Shown in pieces: positions 16,286-35,431 of a DNA stretch of 35,534 bases. Source of the DNA: a virus. The stretch spans positions 1-35,534 of the IMG/VR virus record IMGVR_UViG_3300036806_000406. One strand, written 5' to 3'. The notes below the pieces were generated by a model, which worked only from the letters and a program-made list of their open reading frames with translations, did not search any database and was not told the DNA's origin. Position 1 is the first letter of the stretch. Each line of letters starts with the position of its first letter. A program made the translations under genes and the position numbers.

Positions 16286-16810
16286 CTAGGGCAGCATCCG
16301 CTGCATTACGCCATCGCGATAATAGAACAGATGTGCAAATGCCGCCGCGACGTGGAGTCCGGCCACGACCAACAAGGCCCACATGAAGTTCTGGTGCCAG
16401 CCGTCCAGCAATCTCACCAGCGCACGGTTGCCGGAGGTCAGCATGGGCAACGGCGCGACGAAGAACCACGACACGTTCCAGCCGCGAGCGGAAGCGAACA
16501 GCCAACCGCTCAACGTGGTCAGCAGCACAAGCAAATAGAGCAGCCAATGCACACCCTCGGACGTGATCCGCTGCCATGAAGGAAGCGAGCTTTCCGGAGC
16601 AACCGGATGCGTCACGCGCCACAAGAATCGCGTGACGATCAGCGCAAGAATGACTGTGCCGATCGAGATGTGCCAGGTCATGGGTACGCCAGGGGGGCCG
16701 CCGTGCACGTCCGGCATCAGCCAGCCGAGCGAGTATTGGACGAGGAGAAGTGCGACGACAGTCCAGTGCAGAGCCTTGGCCGTCGTTCCGTAATGCAGGC
16801 GTTTCATCAT
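16286..16810 (-). CDS. Cytochrome b561 family protein
   Basis: This 174-residue protein has four predicted membrane helices and conserved histidines in each expected place: ALHW (about 15), TWHISIG (about 45), EGVHWLL and WHQNFMW/LHVAAAFAHLF. These would bind two b-type hemes, so it should move electrons in the inner membrane. It is slightly shorter than most family members. The start could be either of two consecutive ATG; the ribosome site is weak. It is divergent from the gene at 16939 and is a bacterial-type gene in the phage block between capsid and tail. A broken copy lies at 2640-2953. Confidence 0.93.
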   Translation of the reverse strand: MMKRLHYGTTAKALHWTVVALLLVQYSLGWLMPDVHGGPPGVPMTWHISIGTVILALIVTRFLWRVTHPVAPESSLPSWQRITSEGVHWLLYLLVLLTTLSGWLFASARGWNVSWFFVAPLPMLTSGNRALVRLLDGWHQNFMWALLVVAGLHVAAAFAHLFYYRDGVMQRMLP

Positions 16811-22999: not shown

Positions 23000-23962
23000 G
23001 TGCGTGGCCGATTCATAATTTCCGCCTTCAACTCCCTGAGTGCGGTTATGCTCGCCCTCGCCATTGTTGTAGTTTTTGTGTTTGTTGTGGTTTTTCGTTC
23101 ACTGGCTCGCCGAGCGGTGATTTGCATCATTGAGGTCGCACCCAGCGTACCTCCAAGAGTGGTCGGTTCTCGGGCATGGGCGCTTTCAGAGGCTCTCAGA
23201 TCCCGACTGGCAAAACGCTATCCTAGGCTCTTCGGGATTGTGACGAGACGACTCGACTCCCATAAACCGTCGGGGCTTCTGCTGACGTTGGTCGTTCTCG
23301 CCGCTATCTACGTCGCCGCATTATTCAGCGGCCTTACCGAGGACATTCTTGAAGCACAAGGAACAATCCGAATTGACAACATCGTCAACGCGGCGTTTGG
23401 CCCGTGGCGCGTCGAGCCGCTAATCTCTGCGTTTCTTTGGATCACAGCCTTGGGAAGCAGTCCCGCAGTTGTTGCCGCAGTGATTATCGCAACCGGCTTT
23501 CTCTGGTCGCAACGCCGCTTCTATTCCATCATTCCTCTTTGGATCACTTGTACGGGTGCGCTCGCTACCACAACGATCGGCAAGTTCGTCATTGGCCGGC
23601 ATCGTCCAGAGTTCACGATCGATGTGACCGTGAATTCTTCGTCGTTTCCGAGTGGACACGCGACGGCCGCGATGGCCGTATACGGATTCATTGCATACGC
23701 CATTGCGCGCGCATTGCCGGGCGTTCGTGAACGTTTCGAAGTTACTTATTGGACGATTGTACTCGTTCTCCTGGTTGGCTTCAGCCGCATTTTCTTGGGG
23801 GTCCATTATGTAACGGATGTCGCCGGCGGTTTCCTCGTTGGAGGATTCTGGCTACTGGTCGGATTGATCATTGTCGAATGGAATGCAGCAGACGCGATTG
23901 CGAGTTCCCACCGGGGTGACAATCCTTCGTCTTTATCATCGTCTCAGGACGACAGTCGGTGA
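23000..23962 (+). CDS. PAP2 family membrane phosphatase
   Basis: This 320-residue protein has an N-terminal membrane helix, a soluble Arg-rich linker (about 45-92), then five or six membrane helices with all three PAP2 signatures: KFVIGRHRP (K-x6-RP), PSGH and SRIFLGVHYVTD (SR-x5-H-x3-D). It probably removes phosphate from a lipid such as undecaprenyl diphosphate or phosphatidate on the periplasmic side. The linker and the LLLTLVVLAAIYVAALFSG start of the domain look like the part that follows DedA in DedA-PAP2 fusion proteins; DedA lies at 1010. It is on the opposite strand from the phage genes and next to a lipid kinase gene. Confidence 0.9.
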   Translation: MRGRFIISAFNSLSAVMLALAIVVVFVFVVVFRSLARRAVICIIEVAPSVPPRVVGSRAWALSEALRSRLAKRYPRLFGIVTRRLDSHKPSGLLLTLVVLAAIYVAALFSGLTEDILEAQGTIRIDNIVNAAFGPWRVEPLISAFLWITALGSSPAVVAAVIIATGFLWSQRRFYSIIPLWITCTGALATTTIGKFVIGRHRPEFTIDVTVNSSSFPSGHATAAMAVYGFIAYAIARALPGVRERFEVTYWTIVLVLLVGFSRIFLGVHYVTDVAGGFLVGGFWLLVGLIIVEWNAADAIASSHRGDNPSSLSSSQDDSR

Positions 23963-23981
23963 CGATGCAAAAGGCCTTCCA

Positions 23982-24869
23982 TTGCGAACGCGATTTCTAA
24001 TCATCCACAACCCTAATGCCGGCCCATCGGCACGGCACCTCTATCATGCAACGCTATCGGGGCTTCAGAGACTTGGCTGCAACATTGAGATTATCGAGAC
24101 ATCTCAGCACGGCGAGGGCATGAAGGTTGCAGGGGACGCCGCGCAACGGGGGTGCTTCGATGCAGTTGTGGCAGCAGGAGGCGACGGCACTTTGCACGAT
24201 GCCGCGGAAGGACTGATTGGCAGCTCGACGCCGCTCGGCATCATTCCGATGGGAACGGGAAACGTTTTTGCACAAGAGATGAAGCTTCCTCGGTCGCCAG
24301 ACGAGCTGGTGAACGCCCTGCAGTGTGGCGAGGCACGCGAAGTTCCGGTTGGGCAGGTGAATGGTCGACCCTTTCTCTTTGTTGTGGGAGTGGGTTTCGA
24401 CGCTGCTGCCGTTCGCTTCTTTGAGCAAGAAAGTACTCGCAGTTTAGGTCAGGCCGGATTTGTCTGGCCGGTCCTACGCGCGCTTGTTTCCTACCGCGAC
24501 CCGATACTGCACGTGACGTCGCCTCGAGGTGACGCCGAGGTACCATGGGTCATCGTGACAAGAGTGAAGCGCTATGCCGGAAATCTGATGCTGGCTCCTG
24601 AAGCTGACCCACAGCACGCCCAATTCTACGTTCTGCGCATGAGTGGAAGCGGCCCATTGAACCGGATCCGGCAGCTTTCAGCCCTTGCTATCGGTTATCT
24701 TCGCTATGATCCGGACGTTTCCGTTGAATGCGTGGATTGGGTTAAGATTGATGGTGATCAATCAATCCCGGTCCAAGTTGACGGCGAGGTGCTTGGCAAC
24801 CTGCCGTTGGAGATCTGTATTCACCCGAAACGACTCAGGCTCATTTGGCCGAGTGGATCATCGACTTAA
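23982..24869 (+). CDS. Diacylglycerol/lipid kinase (YegS-type)
   Basis: The protein shows the lipid-kinase motifs FLIIHNPNAG, AAGGDGTLHDAAEGL and LGIIPMGTGNVFAQE, and a C-terminal beta domain ending in QVDGEVLGNLPLEI. It transfers phosphate from ATP to a diacylglycerol-like lipid. From the TTG at 23982 (AAAAGG site upstream, 20 bases after the PAP2 stop) it is 295 residues, the normal length. ATG codons at 23871 and 23883 would give longer proteins that overlap PAP2. Together with PAP2 it forms a small lipid-phosphate operon: one enzyme adds and the other removes phosphate. Confidence 0.88.
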   Translation: MRTRFLIIHNPNAGPSARHLYHATLSGLQRLGCNIEIIETSQHGEGMKVAGDAAQRGCFDAVVAAGGDGTLHDAAEGLIGSSTPLGIIPMGTGNVFAQEMKLPRSPDELVNALQCGEAREVPVGQVNGRPFLFVVGVGFDAAAVRFFEQESTRSLGQAGFVWPVLRALVSYRDPILHVTSPRGDAEVPWVIVTRVKRYAGNLMLAPEADPQHAQFYVLRMSGSGPLNRIRQLSALAIGYLRYDPDVSVECVDWVKIDGDQSIPVQVDGEVLGNLPLEICIHPKRLRLIWPSGSST

Positions 24870-28809: not shown

Positions 28810-30044
28810 TCAGGCAGGTTCCACTGAAAATGGTTGACCGGTGGTGGCGTGAGTAGCGCTCCCACCGGTTGCCTTTTGCCATCGCTGCACGATCACATCG
28901 ACATACTTGGGATCGAGTTCAACGAGCCGCGCGCGCCGGCCGGACCGTTCAGCGGCAATCAGAGTAGTGCCGGAGCCGCCGAATGGATCGAACACGATGT
29001 CACGGCTCCTCGACGAGTTGCGAATGGCGCGCTCCACCAGCTCAACCGGCTTCATGGTCGGGTGAAGATCATTTTCGCCGGCTTGTCGATGAACCAGACG
29101 TCTCCCTGGTCGCGCGCGCCGCACCAATAGTGGTCAGTGCCCTCCTTCCAACCATAGAGGATCGGCTCGTACTGCCGCTGGTAGTCCGATCGGCCGAGCG
29201 TGAACGTATTCTTCGCCCAGATCACGAAGGTGGACCAGTGACCGCCGGCCGATCGAAACGCCTTCTGCAACGTGTCGAGTTCCGACGACGACATACAGAT
29301 GTACACTCCGCCCTTGGTTACGGTCAGGATGTTGACGCTGGCGTCGTAGAGAAGCTGACCGAACTCTTCGCCCAGGGCGTCGTTGAGGATCGGTCGCTTT
29401 TTGCTACCTCGCTTTTTGTCTGATCCATTGGCGTAGTTCACGTTGTAGGGCGGATCGGTGAAGCATACATCGGCAAGCTCGCCGCCGAGCACGGTTTCGA
29501 CATCCGACAGCACCGTCGCGTCGCCACAGAGCACCCGGTGGTGCCCGCAGACCCAGAGATCACCGGGCCGCGAGATCGGGTCGGCCGGCAACTCGGGCGC
29601 CTCGTCGGCGTCTTCACCTTCTTCGGCTGCGCCATCAAGCAACCGGTCGAGCTCGCCCTCATCGAAACCCAGCAGCCCGAGATCGACATCCTCATCCCGG
29701 AGCGCAGCCAGTTCGGCCGCCAGCATCGCCTCGTTCCATCCAGCGTTGATCGCGATCTGGTTGTCCGCAATCATCAGCGCACGGCGCTGCGTGGGCGAGA
29801 GGTGCGCGAGCACGATCACCGGCACTTCCGTCAGGCCAAGCTTGCGTGCCGCAAGGACACGTCCGTGCCCTGCGACGATCACACCGTCATCACCGACAAG
29901 CACCGGGTTCACGAAGCCGAACTCGGCGATCGATCCTGCGATTTGCGCCACCTGTGCGTCGGGATGCGTCCGGGCGTTGCGGGCGTGTGGGATCAGGCGA
30001 TCGAGCGGCCAACGCTCGATCTGCTCGCTCAACTGCGATGTCAT
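28810..30044 (-). pseudogene. ParB-domain DNA methyltransferase, frameshifted
   Basis: The first 330 codons (30044-29052) encode a ParB-like domain (LIPHARNARTHPD, VAGHGRVLAARKLG) and the start of a methyltransferase (FTDPPYNVNYANG), then stop after PAKMIFTRP. The missing part continues in the other frame: ENDLHPTMKPVELVERA and FDPFGGSGTTLIAAERSG, ending at 28810. One base lost in the stretch GCGAAAATG (29072-29080) explains the break. The full protein would be about 410 residues and would methylate adenine or cytosine in phage or host DNA. As it stands, it lacks the SAM-binding FGGSGT motif. A sequencing error in the four-A run is possible. Confidence 0.85.
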
Positions 30045-31276: not shown

Positions 31277-31611
31277 GTCGGCGCCGCCTCACTGGTCTGG
31301 GCCGGCGGGTCGGCCTTCGCTGCGAGATCGATTACAGCGCCAATGATGGATGCGGGTTCGGCATTGCCACTGCGCCCCATGCTACTGGCGATCTGGGTCG
31401 GCTCAACGCCGTACTGCATGAGGCAGGAAAGAAGAACGCACGCATCGGCGAGGAGCGCGTCGAGACCGGATCCCGTGCGGATCCCGTGGGTGAAGACCTC
31501 GCCGGGCCGCCCGTCAGGATAAAAGCCGATCGTCACGGTGAACCGGCTACCACCGTGCTCCAGGTCGACAGTGGCGGCGGCACGCCGGTCGGGCAGTCTT
31601 TGCCGGCTCAT
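31273..31611 (-). CDS. TSCPD-domain phage protein
   Basis: The ATG at 31611 (112 residues) overlaps the RuvC-like gene's stop in an ATGA arrangement; an open frame extends ten codons upstream. The core TVTIGFYPDGRPGEVFTHG, SGLDALLADACVLLSCLMQYG and PTQI matches the TSCPD domain, which is found at the end of ribonucleotide reductases and as single proteins in phages. It may act in nucleotide metabolism, but the catalytic parts of a reductase are absent here. The end (TSEAAPT) is disordered. Confidence 0.78.
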   Translation of the reverse strand: MSRQRLPDRRAAATVDLEHGGSRFTVTIGFYPDGRPGEVFTHGIRTGSGLDALLADACVLLSCLMQYGVEPTQIASSMGRSGNAEPASIIGAVIDLAAKADPPAQTSEAAPT

Positions 31612-32144
31612 CGCACGCCTCCCTGTGTCTCGATCGACCATAGGAGGATCGCGATAGCATCAGCTTCGTTGTCGTCCGCAGGTGCGAAGCCGCGGGCCTT
31701 GATTGCCGCAATGACGGCGGCTTTGTCCGCATTGCCCTTGCCGGCAATAAAACGTTTGATGGTCCCGACCGGTACGCCTTGGTAGGCGATGCCGTGCTGT
31801 TCGCACCAAGCAGTCAGCGTTGCGAGGAGACCGCCATACACGTGTGCCGCGTCGGTGCCGGCGTGGCGTCGAACCTCTTCGAAATAGATTGCGGCGAGAC
31901 CGGCGACGTTTGCAGCCGTGCTGTCGAGCCAGCCTCGAAAGCGCAGATAGCGCATTCCACCGCCGTCGTATCGACTCGGGCGAAACGAGACGCGGCCGCT
32001 TTCGATTCGCGCCCCAGCGGGCTGCATCGCCCACCCGGTAGTTGTGCCGAGATCCAGCGCAAGGACAGCCGAGCGCCCAAGATCGACCGACCTATCGGAT
32101 GGTGCGGCGGGCGTGAAAGTTGGAAATTCGGGAGCGGTATTCAC
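31608..32144 (-). CDS. RuvC-like Holliday junction resolvase/nuclease
   Basis: This 178-residue protein has an RNase H-like fold typical for phage RuvC-type nucleases: the first acid in AVLALDLGTTTGWA (about 27-40), IYFEEVRRHAG (glutamate pair), GTIKRFIAGKGNADKAAVI and the closing acids in DDNEADAIAILLW. These fit metal binding for cutting branched DNA during replication or packaging. It is the first gene in a tight operon. The region in front contains the repeat cluster at 32267-32432. Confidence 0.85.
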   Translation of the reverse strand: MNTAPEFPTFTPAAPSDRSVDLGRSAVLALDLGTTTGWAMQPAGARIESGRVSFRPSRYDGGGMRYLRFRGWLDSTAANVAGLAAIYFEEVRRHAGTDAAHVYGGLLATLTAWCEQHGIAYQGVPVGTIKRFIAGKGNADKAAVIAAIKARGFAPADDNEADAIAILLWSIETQGGVR

Positions 32145-32266
32145 AACGAAGGCTCACGAGAGGTGGGCCTTCGGCTTCGGTCACGCTGATTCTACAGGCA
32201 TCGAAACCCCGTGATCAACGAAAAACGGCCGGCCGATCAACTTTTTGGCGGACACGTCAGACCGTT

Positions 32267-32432
32267 GTCACCATGTCACCGTCACCAAGGGGGTCTTCCA
32301 AACATGTTCTATAAGAGAGGGCATTTTTTATATGCATCTCTTACGTATACGTTCTGAACAGGATGGTGACGTTGGTGACATTGGTGACAGGACTGGTTTG
32401 ACACATGTTTTCCTGTCACCATCAGTGTCACC
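32267..32432. repeat. Array of GTCACC/GGTGAC repeats with central AT-rich inverted repeat
   Basis: GTCACC is at 32267, 32275, 32281, 32415 and 32427; its complement GGTGAC at 32365, 32374 and 32383 (exactly nine bases apart). Between the groups lie AAGAGAGGGCAT with its complement ATGCATCTCTT (about 32313-32342) flanking TTTTTATAT, and the palindrome ACGTATACGT (32343-32352). The array fills the gap between the RuvC operon and the DUF2237 gene. Repeats on both sides of an AT-rich segment fit an origin with iterons or an operator array. Confidence 0.8.
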
Positions 32433-32493
32433 AAGTCAGCGGATGGTGCCGTGGGGAAGCTGGACGCACCCAACTCGGAGGTCTTGTCCTAGC

Positions 32494-32901
32494 ATGCTGC
32501 GGGATGATCGAAGCGAGGGAGAGCGGCAACAAAGCGAGCCGCGGAACGTCCTCGGCGAGCAGCTCGATATCTGCTCGACCAAGCCTATGACCGGGTTCTT
32601 CCGGGACGGTTGTTGCAACACGAGCACTGAGGATGTTGGCAGTCATACCGTCTGCGTCGTGATGACCGCAGAGTTTCTTGAGTTTTCCAAATCGCAAGGC
32701 AACGATTTATCTACGCCAATACCTGCATTCGGATTTCCTGGCCTCAAACCCGGCGACCGCTGGTGCCTGTGCGCACCGCGTTGGCAGGAAGCGTTCCAGG
32801 CTGGGAAGGCACCGCGGGTCGTCTTACGAGCGACTCACGAAGGCGCCTTGAGCTTTTGTTCGCTGGCCGATCTAAAGCGATTCGCAGTCGACCTCAGCTA
32901 G
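32494..32901 (+). CDS. DUF2237 protein
   Basis: From the ATG at 32494 this is 135 residues; the start is not certain (a GGAGG lies about 14 bases upstream). The protein has the DUF2237 pattern: NVLGEQLDICSTKPMTGFFR, DGCCNTSTEDVGSHTVC, TAEFLEFSKSQGNDLSTP and FGFPGLKPGDRWCLCAPRW. Four or more conserved cysteines suggest metal binding or redox chemistry; the role is unknown. It is a widespread bacterial gene, on the plus strand, and overlaps the end of the primase gene by eight bases in a convergent layout. Confidence 0.88.
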   Translation: MLRDDRSEGERQQSEPRNVLGEQLDICSTKPMTGFFRDGCCNTSTEDVGSHTVCVVMTAEFLEFSKSQGNDLSTPIPAFGFPGLKPGDRWCLCAPRWQEAFQAGKAPRVVLRATHEGALSFCSLADLKRFAVDLS

Positions 32902-35431
32902 CCTCGCGTTCAGGCTTTTCCAAGAGTCGATACCGCCATTCTCGGAAGGAGCCCTTGCGGGCTTGGTACCGCTCCCATTCCCGCGTCTTGAGATAGGCGG
33001 CCACCCGCATCTGTTCGGCGCGGTTCCAACGTGCGGGTTCTATTCCGAGCGCCTGTTCGAGGATCTCGCCGACCGAGACGTCAGACAGCGTCTGAGGCCG
33101 CTCGACCTCCTCATCCCGCCAATCATCGTAGTTGCCGTATCCGTGGTTGACCCGCCTGCACTCAAAGGAGAGCCATCGGTCAATCCGCGCATCCCAAGCG
33201 TCTCCTTGATACCGTCGATCTTGTTCAATCTTTGCGTCGGCCATCAATTCCGGTTCATCGAACCACCAGATCGCACCCTGTCGATAACGCGCGACGGCCT
33301 CGGCCCACAATTGGTCGCGGTCTCGACCAAGCGCCGCAACGTCGATCAACCCGCATCGCACGGGCCAAAATCGGCGGTTGCCCGTTTCGTCCCGGAGATA
33401 CGTCTCTGGGTTGACGCTGCCCGCGAACACGCACTGACGAGGCACCTCCACGACATACCGCTCGTATGGCGGGCGATATCTGTCCGTCGTCCGTGTCAGG
33501 AAGGCTTTGATCCGGGAAACCTCCGCCCGGCTGATTGCATCGAGTTCGGCGAATTCGATGATCCAGACCCCGCGCATCTGCTGAGCAGCATCCTTGCTGC
33601 CGATTTCGGCGAGCTCGTCGGTGAACCACTCAGCGCCTGCAAGCATCTTCAGTGCGCTGGACTTCTTCGCACCTTGCGGCCCCTCCAGGATCAACATGTG
33701 GTCGACCTTGGCGCCGGGCTGCAAGATGCGAGCGACCGCGGAAATCATCCAGCGCGATCCTATGGCGCGGATCAGTGAAGTGTCGTCGGCGCCCAAGTAA
33801 GTGATGAGCCAGCTGTCGAGCCTGTCAACGCCGTCCCACCGTAAACTCGTCAGATAGTCACGGACCGGATGCACACGGATGTCTCGCGCCACGGCGTTGA
33901 CACCCCGGCTTACAGTGACGGGGCTCACATTAATTTCGCGGTGCTGCAGCCATACTGCACACCGCACGTCGTCCACATCGAGCCAGGCGCGAGGCACAGC
34001 GCTGCGCGCGTCCCACGGCAAGGCTCGCGCGACCATTATCTCCTGGCGGAATTCGTCGAACCCCAAGGCGCCCGCAAATGCTTCATCATTCGACAAGGCG
34101 ACGATGACATTCGCTTCGTTGCGCTCTGGCGTCCCGGCGAGGTCGAGTCGGAGTTGGCTCGCCCACTTGGGACGAAAAGGCTGCCGGTGGATGTCACCGG
34201 TGGCGTTCAGGCGGCGGCGCAATTCGCCGATCTGCTTCTCAAGAATAGCAACGGAAATCCCGGTCGACCGCTTGATTGCATCCAGAACCTGCCGCTCGGG
34301 CAGCGGCTCAAGCCGAGCCTGGACGAGTTGACCGAGAAGAGTTCCAAGCGCCTGAAGATCAGGCGGCCTGGTCAACAACCGAACGGCGGATTCGAAATCG
34401 CCCACGATGCTGATGAGGTGCTGCGCCTGATTTGGTTTCGGCGCTGCATAATCATTGGCGACCGCGCCGCGGCGGAGATCATCGTTGAAGTCGTCGCCAT
34501 GCAGCGGCGTTAGGACAGTATTGGCGATTCCTGCTGTGTTAAGCCGCTCCGCCAGAGCTGCAGCAGCCTGCGATCCGGCATTTCCCGCGTCGGCAAAAAC
34601 CGTCACGCGCGTGACGCCTGGCGGCCACTGCCACTGCCGTATGCCGTCGGCCGACAGGGCGGCCCACGTCGCAATCCCAAAGATCGCCTGCGCGGAGAGA
34701 GCCGTCTCGATGCCTTCAGCTATACCGAGATGTCCATTGCTCCCGAGCGAGAACAGGCGAACCGACCCGCCAGCCACCGGGCCCAGCATTTTCTTGCCCG
34801 GTGGCGCCTTGGCCGATCCATCATCGAACAAGTAGGTGCGATGGATGCCACCAGTCGGCTCGCCGGCTGCATCTCGCACCCAAGCCACCATGCCGGGCCA
34901 TCCGCGCTTCGTTTCAAAGTCGGTCAGATCGTCGTTAAAAAGTAGGTCATCACAGGCGGGATCGCGCAGCCCTCGCGTCTGCAGATACCGCTCGGCGACC
35001 GAGCCGGCGAGCGATGCACACCCGGTGAGAATCCGTGCAACTTCATGACTATGGTCGACTTTGGCAGATGCGGCGCCGCGTGTCGGCGCCGGTCGATCCA
35101 GCCGCGCCTGCCGTGCCGCCTCCTCGAAAAGTGCCGCGTTGCCCATCCCGGTGGAATGATGAATGAGGTCGATCGGACCGGCGCATTCACCAGTCGCATG
35201 GTCGTAGCCCCAACCGGCCCTGGAGCCGCGTAAATGAATGACGCACGAGCCCTCGTTGCGCGGCGGGCGGCCCGAGAGGTCTGCACATCGGAGCGTTTTG
35301 CGGTCCGGCGAAAGCCGCGCATGCGGAAACAGCTGCGGCAGCCATTCGGCTGCCGTAGCACACAGACGCTCGCAGATGTCATCGAGGTCGTAACGGACGG
35401 GTGGCTGCCAGACCTCGTTGAGGTCGATCAT
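32894..35431 (-). CDS. Phage primase-helicase, VapE-type
   Basis: This 845-residue protein begins with a zinc-free primase-like part (RLSPDRKTLRCADLSGRPP, WGYDHATGECAGPIDLIHH), followed by a Toprim-like region (LGIAEGIETALSAQAIFG, VTVFADAGNAGSQAA). The C-terminal half is the virulence-associated E helicase domain: DYLTSLRWDGVDRLDSWL, Walker A LEGPQGAKKSSAL, Walker B VWIIEFAELDAI, and CVFAGSVNPETYLRDETGNR. It should make primers and unwind phage DNA. The start overlaps the stop of the upstream gene (ATGA). It is complete. Confidence 0.93.
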   Translation of the reverse strand: MIDLNEVWQPPVRYDLDDICERLCATAAEWLPQLFPHARLSPDRKTLRCADLSGRPPRNEGSCVIHLRGSRAGWGYDHATGECAGPIDLIHHSTGMGNAALFEEAARQARLDRPAPTRGAASAKVDHSHEVARILTGCASLAGSVAERYLQTRGLRDPACDDLLFNDDLTDFETKRGWPGMVAWVRDAAGEPTGGIHRTYLFDDGSAKAPPGKKMLGPVAGGSVRLFSLGSNGHLGIAEGIETALSAQAIFGIATWAALSADGIRQWQWPPGVTRVTVFADAGNAGSQAAAALAERLNTAGIANTVLTPLHGDDFNDDLRRGAVANDYAAPKPNQAQHLISIVGDFESAVRLLTRPPDLQALGTLLGQLVQARLEPLPERQVLDAIKRSTGISVAILEKQIGELRRRLNATGDIHRQPFRPKWASQLRLDLAGTPERNEANVIVALSNDEAFAGALGFDEFRQEIMVARALPWDARSAVPRAWLDVDDVRCAVWLQHREINVSPVTVSRGVNAVARDIRVHPVRDYLTSLRWDGVDRLDSWLITYLGADDTSLIRAIGSRWMISAVARILQPGAKVDHMLILEGPQGAKKSSALKMLAGAEWFTDELAEIGSKDAAQQMRGVWIIEFAELDAISRAEVSRIKAFLTRTTDRYRPPYERYVVEVPRQCVFAGSVNPETYLRDETGNRRFWPVRCGLIDVAALGRDRDQLWAEAVARYRQGAIWWFDEPELMADAKIEQDRRYQGDAWDARIDRWLSFECRRVNHGYGNYDDWRDEEVERPQTLSDVSVGEILEQALGIEPARWNRAEQMRVAAYLKTREWERYQARKGSFREWRYRLLEKPEREAS

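Follow-up and report, generated by a model that had tools for sequence, protein, structure and literature searches.

A predicted iteron origin in a family of alphaproteobacterial prophages and its covariation with a fused primase-helicase

Results

Genes and features of the locus

The window, by which we mean the whole stretch of DNA analysed here (35,534 bases), belongs to a tailed alphaproteobacterial prophage: it encodes a GpA-type terminase according to Pfam together with portal, protease, capsid and tail genes recognised by reading. A search of a phage collection returned no record covering 80% of its primase, and no named phage with such an initiator was found. The minus strand carries in order the primase-helicase gene, an array of short repeats, a RuvC-like gene (so named in the initial annotation, without a Pfam hit at 0.001) and the TSCPD and DUF6362 genes. 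The initial annotation had located the array with the replication genes on one side and the RuvC operon on the other. This position is supported except that the primase gene is not the immediate neighbour of the array, as a DUF2237 gene intervenes. The features are as follows.

31608..32144, minus strand: RuvC-like gene, start 122 bp from the array
32266..32288, plus strand: RuvC-proximal iteron set, three direct copies (TGTCACCAT at 32266, TGTCACCGT at 32274, CGTCACCAA at 32280)
32289..32362, no strand: central low-GC spacer with inverted repeat and palindrome, candidate DNA unwinding element
32363..32389, minus strand: inner iteron set, three copies exactly 9 bp apart, facing the RuvC-proximal set across the centre
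32414..32434, plus strand: outer iteron pair (TGTCACCAT at 32414, TGTCACCAA at 32426)
32494..32901, plus strand: DUF2237 gene, occupying the cargo slot that separates primase stop from array
32894..35431, minus strand: primase-helicase, proposed initiator (Pfam: DUF7146, Toprim_3, VapE-like)
about 32924-33205, within the primase-helicase gene: predicted C-terminal winged helix, residues about 743-836

The hexamer GTCACC occurs eight times, always perfectly, within the 166 bp from 32267 to 32432, with starts at 32267, 32275 and 32281 on the plus strand, at 32365, 32374 and 32383 on the minus strand and again on the plus strand at 32415 and 32427. Both the count given in the initial annotation and its description of three copies with exact nine-base spacing, reversed relative to the outer groups, were borne out. 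The densest 166 bp in any of 500 dinucleotide-preserving shuffles of the whole window held four copies. Across the window GTCACC is found 34 times against 17.6 expected, with 8 of the 34 in the array, while the longer word TGTCACCA is present five times in the array and once elsewhere. Taken together the window iterons (n = 8) read TGTCACCA followed by A or T. The centre (32288-32361) has a GC content of 39% compared to 61.5% for the window. The AT-rich inverted repeat that had been noticed there is present, but its arms are imperfect (32312-32324, TAAGAGAGGGCAT; 32332-32343, reverse complement TAAGAGATGCAT); the palindrome ACGTATACGT lies at 32343-32352 as described.

Other sequence signals were looked for as well. 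Cumulative GC skew of the window showed no clear switch at the array and was uninformative. Rfam returned weak matches to microRNA families only, far below gathering scores, which are due to the inverted repeats. A promoter and terminator scan found no terminator and a single weak sigma-70-like site (32218-32189, minus strand), and in a reading by eye of 32200-32500 we saw no DnaA box (TTATCCACA).

The layout of the array is conserved while its word changes

Relatives were collected by scans with RuvC and the primase, giving 160 loci from IMG/VR and 80 from GTDB genomes, the latter nearly all titled Alphaproteobacteria, Paracoccus and Roseomonas among them. At least six copies of one hexamer within 240 bp were present in 138/150 gaps between primase stop and RuvC start, as against 3/1500 shuffled gaps, so that the conservation beside the same genes on which the initial annotation had staked its reading was indeed found. 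Opposed inner sets about 90 bp apart flank a centre in 129/152 arrays of relatives, and a spacing of 8 or 9 bp is the commonest (137/166 spacings) and prevails within the left set; outer copies vary in number and orientation. The length of the centre recurs among relatives, as do dyad-like elements of the type CATACG..GGAAA / TTTCC..TATAG, and the exact palindrome ACGTATACGT was not seen among the relatives inspected. A few loci of the first set (L112, L123) have weak arrays.

One word is common to all copies of a locus and differs between loci, where we found TGTCACCAAC, TGTCACCAC, TGTCCCAC, TGTCCCAAC, TGTCCAACC, TGTCCTACC, TGGTCCCAAC, TGGCCCCAC, TGCACCACC and others. The layout is therefore kept and the word changed in concert, a pattern that extends across well over 150 loci. 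The distance from array to RuvC is held within narrow bounds (median 200 bp; 5-95%, 113-326 bp), whereas that to the primase varies up to kilobases: the median array lies 66 bp past the primase stop, cargo displaces it in about a third of loci, and in the window the distance is 461 bp. The DUF2237 gene is outside the origin mechanism, as other loci have different genes or none in that slot.

Three residues of the primase-helicase track the word

The word class changes about 40 times on a tree of the primase computed from residues 1-730, which leaves out the C-terminal domain. When primase pairs were matched for overall identity, the extra divergence of pairs with different words was concentrated at residues 736-845 with a peak near 820. 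Residue 823 is always Q with TCACC or GCACC words and always R or K with the rest (TCCC), in 132/132 rows; the best other column for this trait (trait A, TCACC versus other) scored 0.909. For the second trait (trait B, CCAA versus CCAC/CTAC), residue 811 is A, S or T with CCAA and G with CCAC/CTAC in 121/122 rows and residue 804 (R or K) separates the same classes in 118/122, the next best column being at 0.836. The window primase has Q823, R804 and A811 and goes with TGTCACCAA arrays, while the L100 type has R823, K804 and G811 and goes with TGTCCCAC arrays. Independent pairs agreed in 9/9 cases for residue 823 (p 0.0039) and in about 17/17 for trait B (median p 1.5e-5). The difference between TCACC and TCCC can also be read as the loss of one base (TGTCACCAC to TGTCCCAC), and the covariation is independent of that choice. 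Glutamine commonly contacts A, and arginine or lysine a C:G pair; a Q at position 823 facing A and an R or K facing C:G would fit these usual side-chain preferences.

Since the columns 804, 811 and 823 had been picked after looking at all 845, the rule was tested on new loci. Four further scans provided initiators whose C-terminal sequence was absent from the first set, with 47 classifiable arrays, and the word class was predicted in 47/47 for residue 823 and in 47/47 for residue 811; the classes were of 6 versus 41 and 29 versus 18, and many of these loci are close to first-set rows, so the figures do not amount to 47 independent tests. Six held-out loci have no array: five have no RuvC match and may end too early, and one (L464) has RuvC and no array.

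The same column scan was run on the neighbouring proteins. The best columns for traits A and B were at 1.0 and 0.992 in the primase, 0.898 and 0.714 in RuvC, 0.870 and 0.779 in DUF6362, and 0.941 and 0.714 in the ParB-like protein, for which the trait A value is to be read against a baseline of 0.788; TSCPD had 11 rows only. RuvC, DUF6362 and the ParB-like protein were accordingly rejected as readers of the word. Among the binders suggested in the initial annotation, the residue-to-word covariation thus speaks for the primase-helicase, while no column of DUF6362 tracks the word. By covariation, the C-terminal domain of the initiator appears to specify the iteron word. Such covariation suggests that the initiator reads the word and by itself does not place the start of replication at the array.

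A predicted winged helix at the C-terminus

AlphaFold models were made of residues 415-845 (47 sequences, mean pLDDT 74, with the AAA+ core at low confidence) and of residues 730-845 (72 sequences, mean pLDDT 80). Over residues 770-839 the pLDDT is 84-92 per block. Residues 804 and 811 are located in a helix (804-816) and residue 823 in the first strand of a hairpin (819-826 / 829-836), and in the model this helix and hairpin correspond to the recognition helix and the wing, respectively, of a winged-helix fold. The predicted winged-helix arrangement, helices followed by a two-stranded wing, was found at primase residues about 743-836, and the C-terminal part aligned in structure to winged-helix proteins with middling Z scores of 5-6.

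The larger model matched, along its whole length, the PriRep1-dsDNA structure 7PDS both by Foldseek (E 3e-21) and in a VIA-align comparison (Z 21.3, rmsd 6.5, 361 residues, 24% identity), and by sequence 7pds_A was the only PDB match of phmmer (E 2e-49, residues 422-693). A fold search with the C-terminal domain alone had PriRep1 at the top again at a non-significant E of 0.32, so it is the larger model, with the secondary structure, on which the assignment of the domain is based.

Arrays next to other primase types

RuvC relatives (68-80% identical) are also found next to primases with only the DUF7146-Toprim half in common; the helicase halves examined there are DUF927, D5_N/DUF5906 or without Pfam match. 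The array was in the same slot in 21/21 of these loci, with other words such as GGGGAACGT, GTGAATGTT, ATGACGGAT, TGTGGC and GTGAACCT. Among loci with no such primase detected in the stretch examined, an array is present in 28%. It is the initiator and not RuvC that the word follows, and the slot behaves as the origin position for different helicase-array pairs.

Upstream of RuvC at five loci (L009, L036, L007, L064, L078) the array centres contain long alternating purine-pyrimidine tracts (CACGCGCGCGCG); beside these other primase types such tracts could favour Z-DNA or easy melting. The primases of L012, L007 and L064 (about 975 aa) combine DUF7146-Toprim with a long C-terminal part without Pfam match, yet have an iteron array, and this part may be an undescribed initiator-helicase family.

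Discussion

Self-loading helicases acting at iteron origins are known from the SaPI Rep/PriRep system (Ubeda et al. 2007, 2012; Qiao et al. 2022; described in PMC7581432 and PMC9894130). SaPI Rep uses its C-terminal domain to recognise iterons that lie directly downstream of its own gene (PMC7581432), and through their arrangement in opposed sets the iterons recruit two hexamers placed head to head (PMC9894130). The prophage locus resembles this system in its short iterons in opposed sets around a centre, in the position of the array 3' of the initiator gene, and in an initiator that is a helicase with a C-terminal DNA-binding domain, here predicted. Homology to SaPI Rep/PriRep was also found, with SaPI PriRep1 (7PDS) being the closest solved structure to the helicase half. 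It differs in the fusion of a Toprim (DnaG-type) primase and DUF7146 to a VapE helicase, in the cargo genes that often part initiator gene from origin, in the documented switching of the word, and in its setting in a tailed prophage of Alphaproteobacteria. We also considered the element itself as a SaPI, a satellite that borrows helper capsids, and rejected this because of its own GpA terminase and structural genes. In its working the replicon appears to be of the SaPI Rep-iteron kind, each testable feature having been found, but the element as a whole is a prophage and no SaPI.

Two further systems are comparable. In SCCmec the C-terminal domain of Cch2, a D5/Primase_Cterm helicase, binds direct repeats just past the helicase gene at a putative origin (PMC7581432). 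The prophage shares the C-terminal domain and the repeats just downstream of the helicase gene, with binding predicted here; unlike it, Cch2 has only three 5-nt iterons and no fused primase, and VapE is another helicase family. The alpha protein of phage P4 is a fused primase-helicase whose C-terminal domain recognises iterons, and P4 has separate ori and crr. The likeness lies in a fused primase-helicase with an iteron-reading C-terminal domain, here predicted, and the difference in the separation of ori and crr in P4. In the literature that was searched we found no description of the origin and initiator of this alphaproteobacterial prophage family.

Taken together our results point to 32266-32434 as very probably the replication origin of the prophage, with iterons that would be read by the C-terminal winged helix of the primase-helicase. 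The initial annotation had proposed an iteron-type origin or a multi-site operator, and the comparative evidence, while supporting that pair of readings, favours the origin. On induction the primase-helicase would bind the iterons through its C-terminal winged helix, the opposed sets could position a head-to-head pair of hexamers on the centre, and the hexamers may then melt the centre and load on the single strands as helicases, with the fused Toprim primase starting new strands. This scheme would be that of SaPI Rep/PriRep in a version where the VapE helicase carries a fused DnaG-type primase, SaPI Rep and Cch2 serving as the model for its steps.

It is improbable, if not negligibly so, that the array is instead an operator of the RuvC-TSCPD-DUF6362 operon, bound by the primase-helicase or another phage protein, with replication starting elsewhere. 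The array does lie where an operator might be expected as well, 122 bp upstream of the RuvC start, it stays near RuvC (median 200 bp) even when cargo separates it from the primase, and the one weak sigma-70-like site (32218-32189, minus strand) is nearby. Yet 8 to 11 sites in two opposed sets with a dyad low-GC centre are the layout of an origin and go beyond the needs of a promoter operator, and the word is tracked by a helicase that has a SaPI replication protein as its solved relative. Origin and operator roles may coexist.

Far less credible still is a partition centromere or a site of some other protein such as the ParB_N-like protein (29052-30044) or DUF6362. Iterated sites near a ParB-like gene and the presence of DUF6362 downstream in the same operon would suit it, but no column of either protein tracks the word and DUF6362 has no detectable match, in the stretch examined, at several array-bearing loci. 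We give practically no credence to a functionless cluster arising by chance or composition: GTCACC is indeed over-represented across the whole window, but no shuffle comes near the observed density, and the conservation of the layout and of the concerted word in relatives already refutes it.

Reading the array as the origin provides a predicted origin and initiator for a large and common family of alphaproteobacterial prophages, with a residue-to-word rule that held out of sample. We regard as evenly poised the idea of a swappable origin-recognition code, in which residues 804, 811 and 823 would largely decide the word that is read and all 8-11 copies would be rewritten in concert each time the word switches (about 40 times), which might allow evasion of incompatibility or of origin-hijacking satellites. 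Iteron replicons in general raise the question of how all copies of an array come to switch in step with the initiator. As the layout is kept while the word and the three primase residues change together, the switching of origin specificity is directly testable, and closely related loci that differ naturally in their word supply the material.

The gap between primase stop and predicted origin is also a cargo slot. More than 600 bp separate the array from the primase stop in 55/152 cases, and the genes found there are varied and often oppositely transcribed, such as IetAS (L190), Lamassu LmuB (L234), an SbcC/SbcD-like pair (L202), a weak Avs4-like protein (L232) and a metal P-type ATPase (L162), with DUF2237 as the cargo of the window. 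Elsewhere in the window, reading of the sequence revealed at 29052-30044 (minus strand) a ParB_N-like N-terminus, below the Pfam cut-off, joined to a DNA methyltransferase-like part with a DPPYN motif. Reading also points to possible cargo among the structural genes: at 23000-24869 (plus strand) a PAP2-type phosphatase gene and, after it, a diacylglycerol kinase-like gene, and at 16286-16810 (minus strand) a cytochrome b561-like gene.
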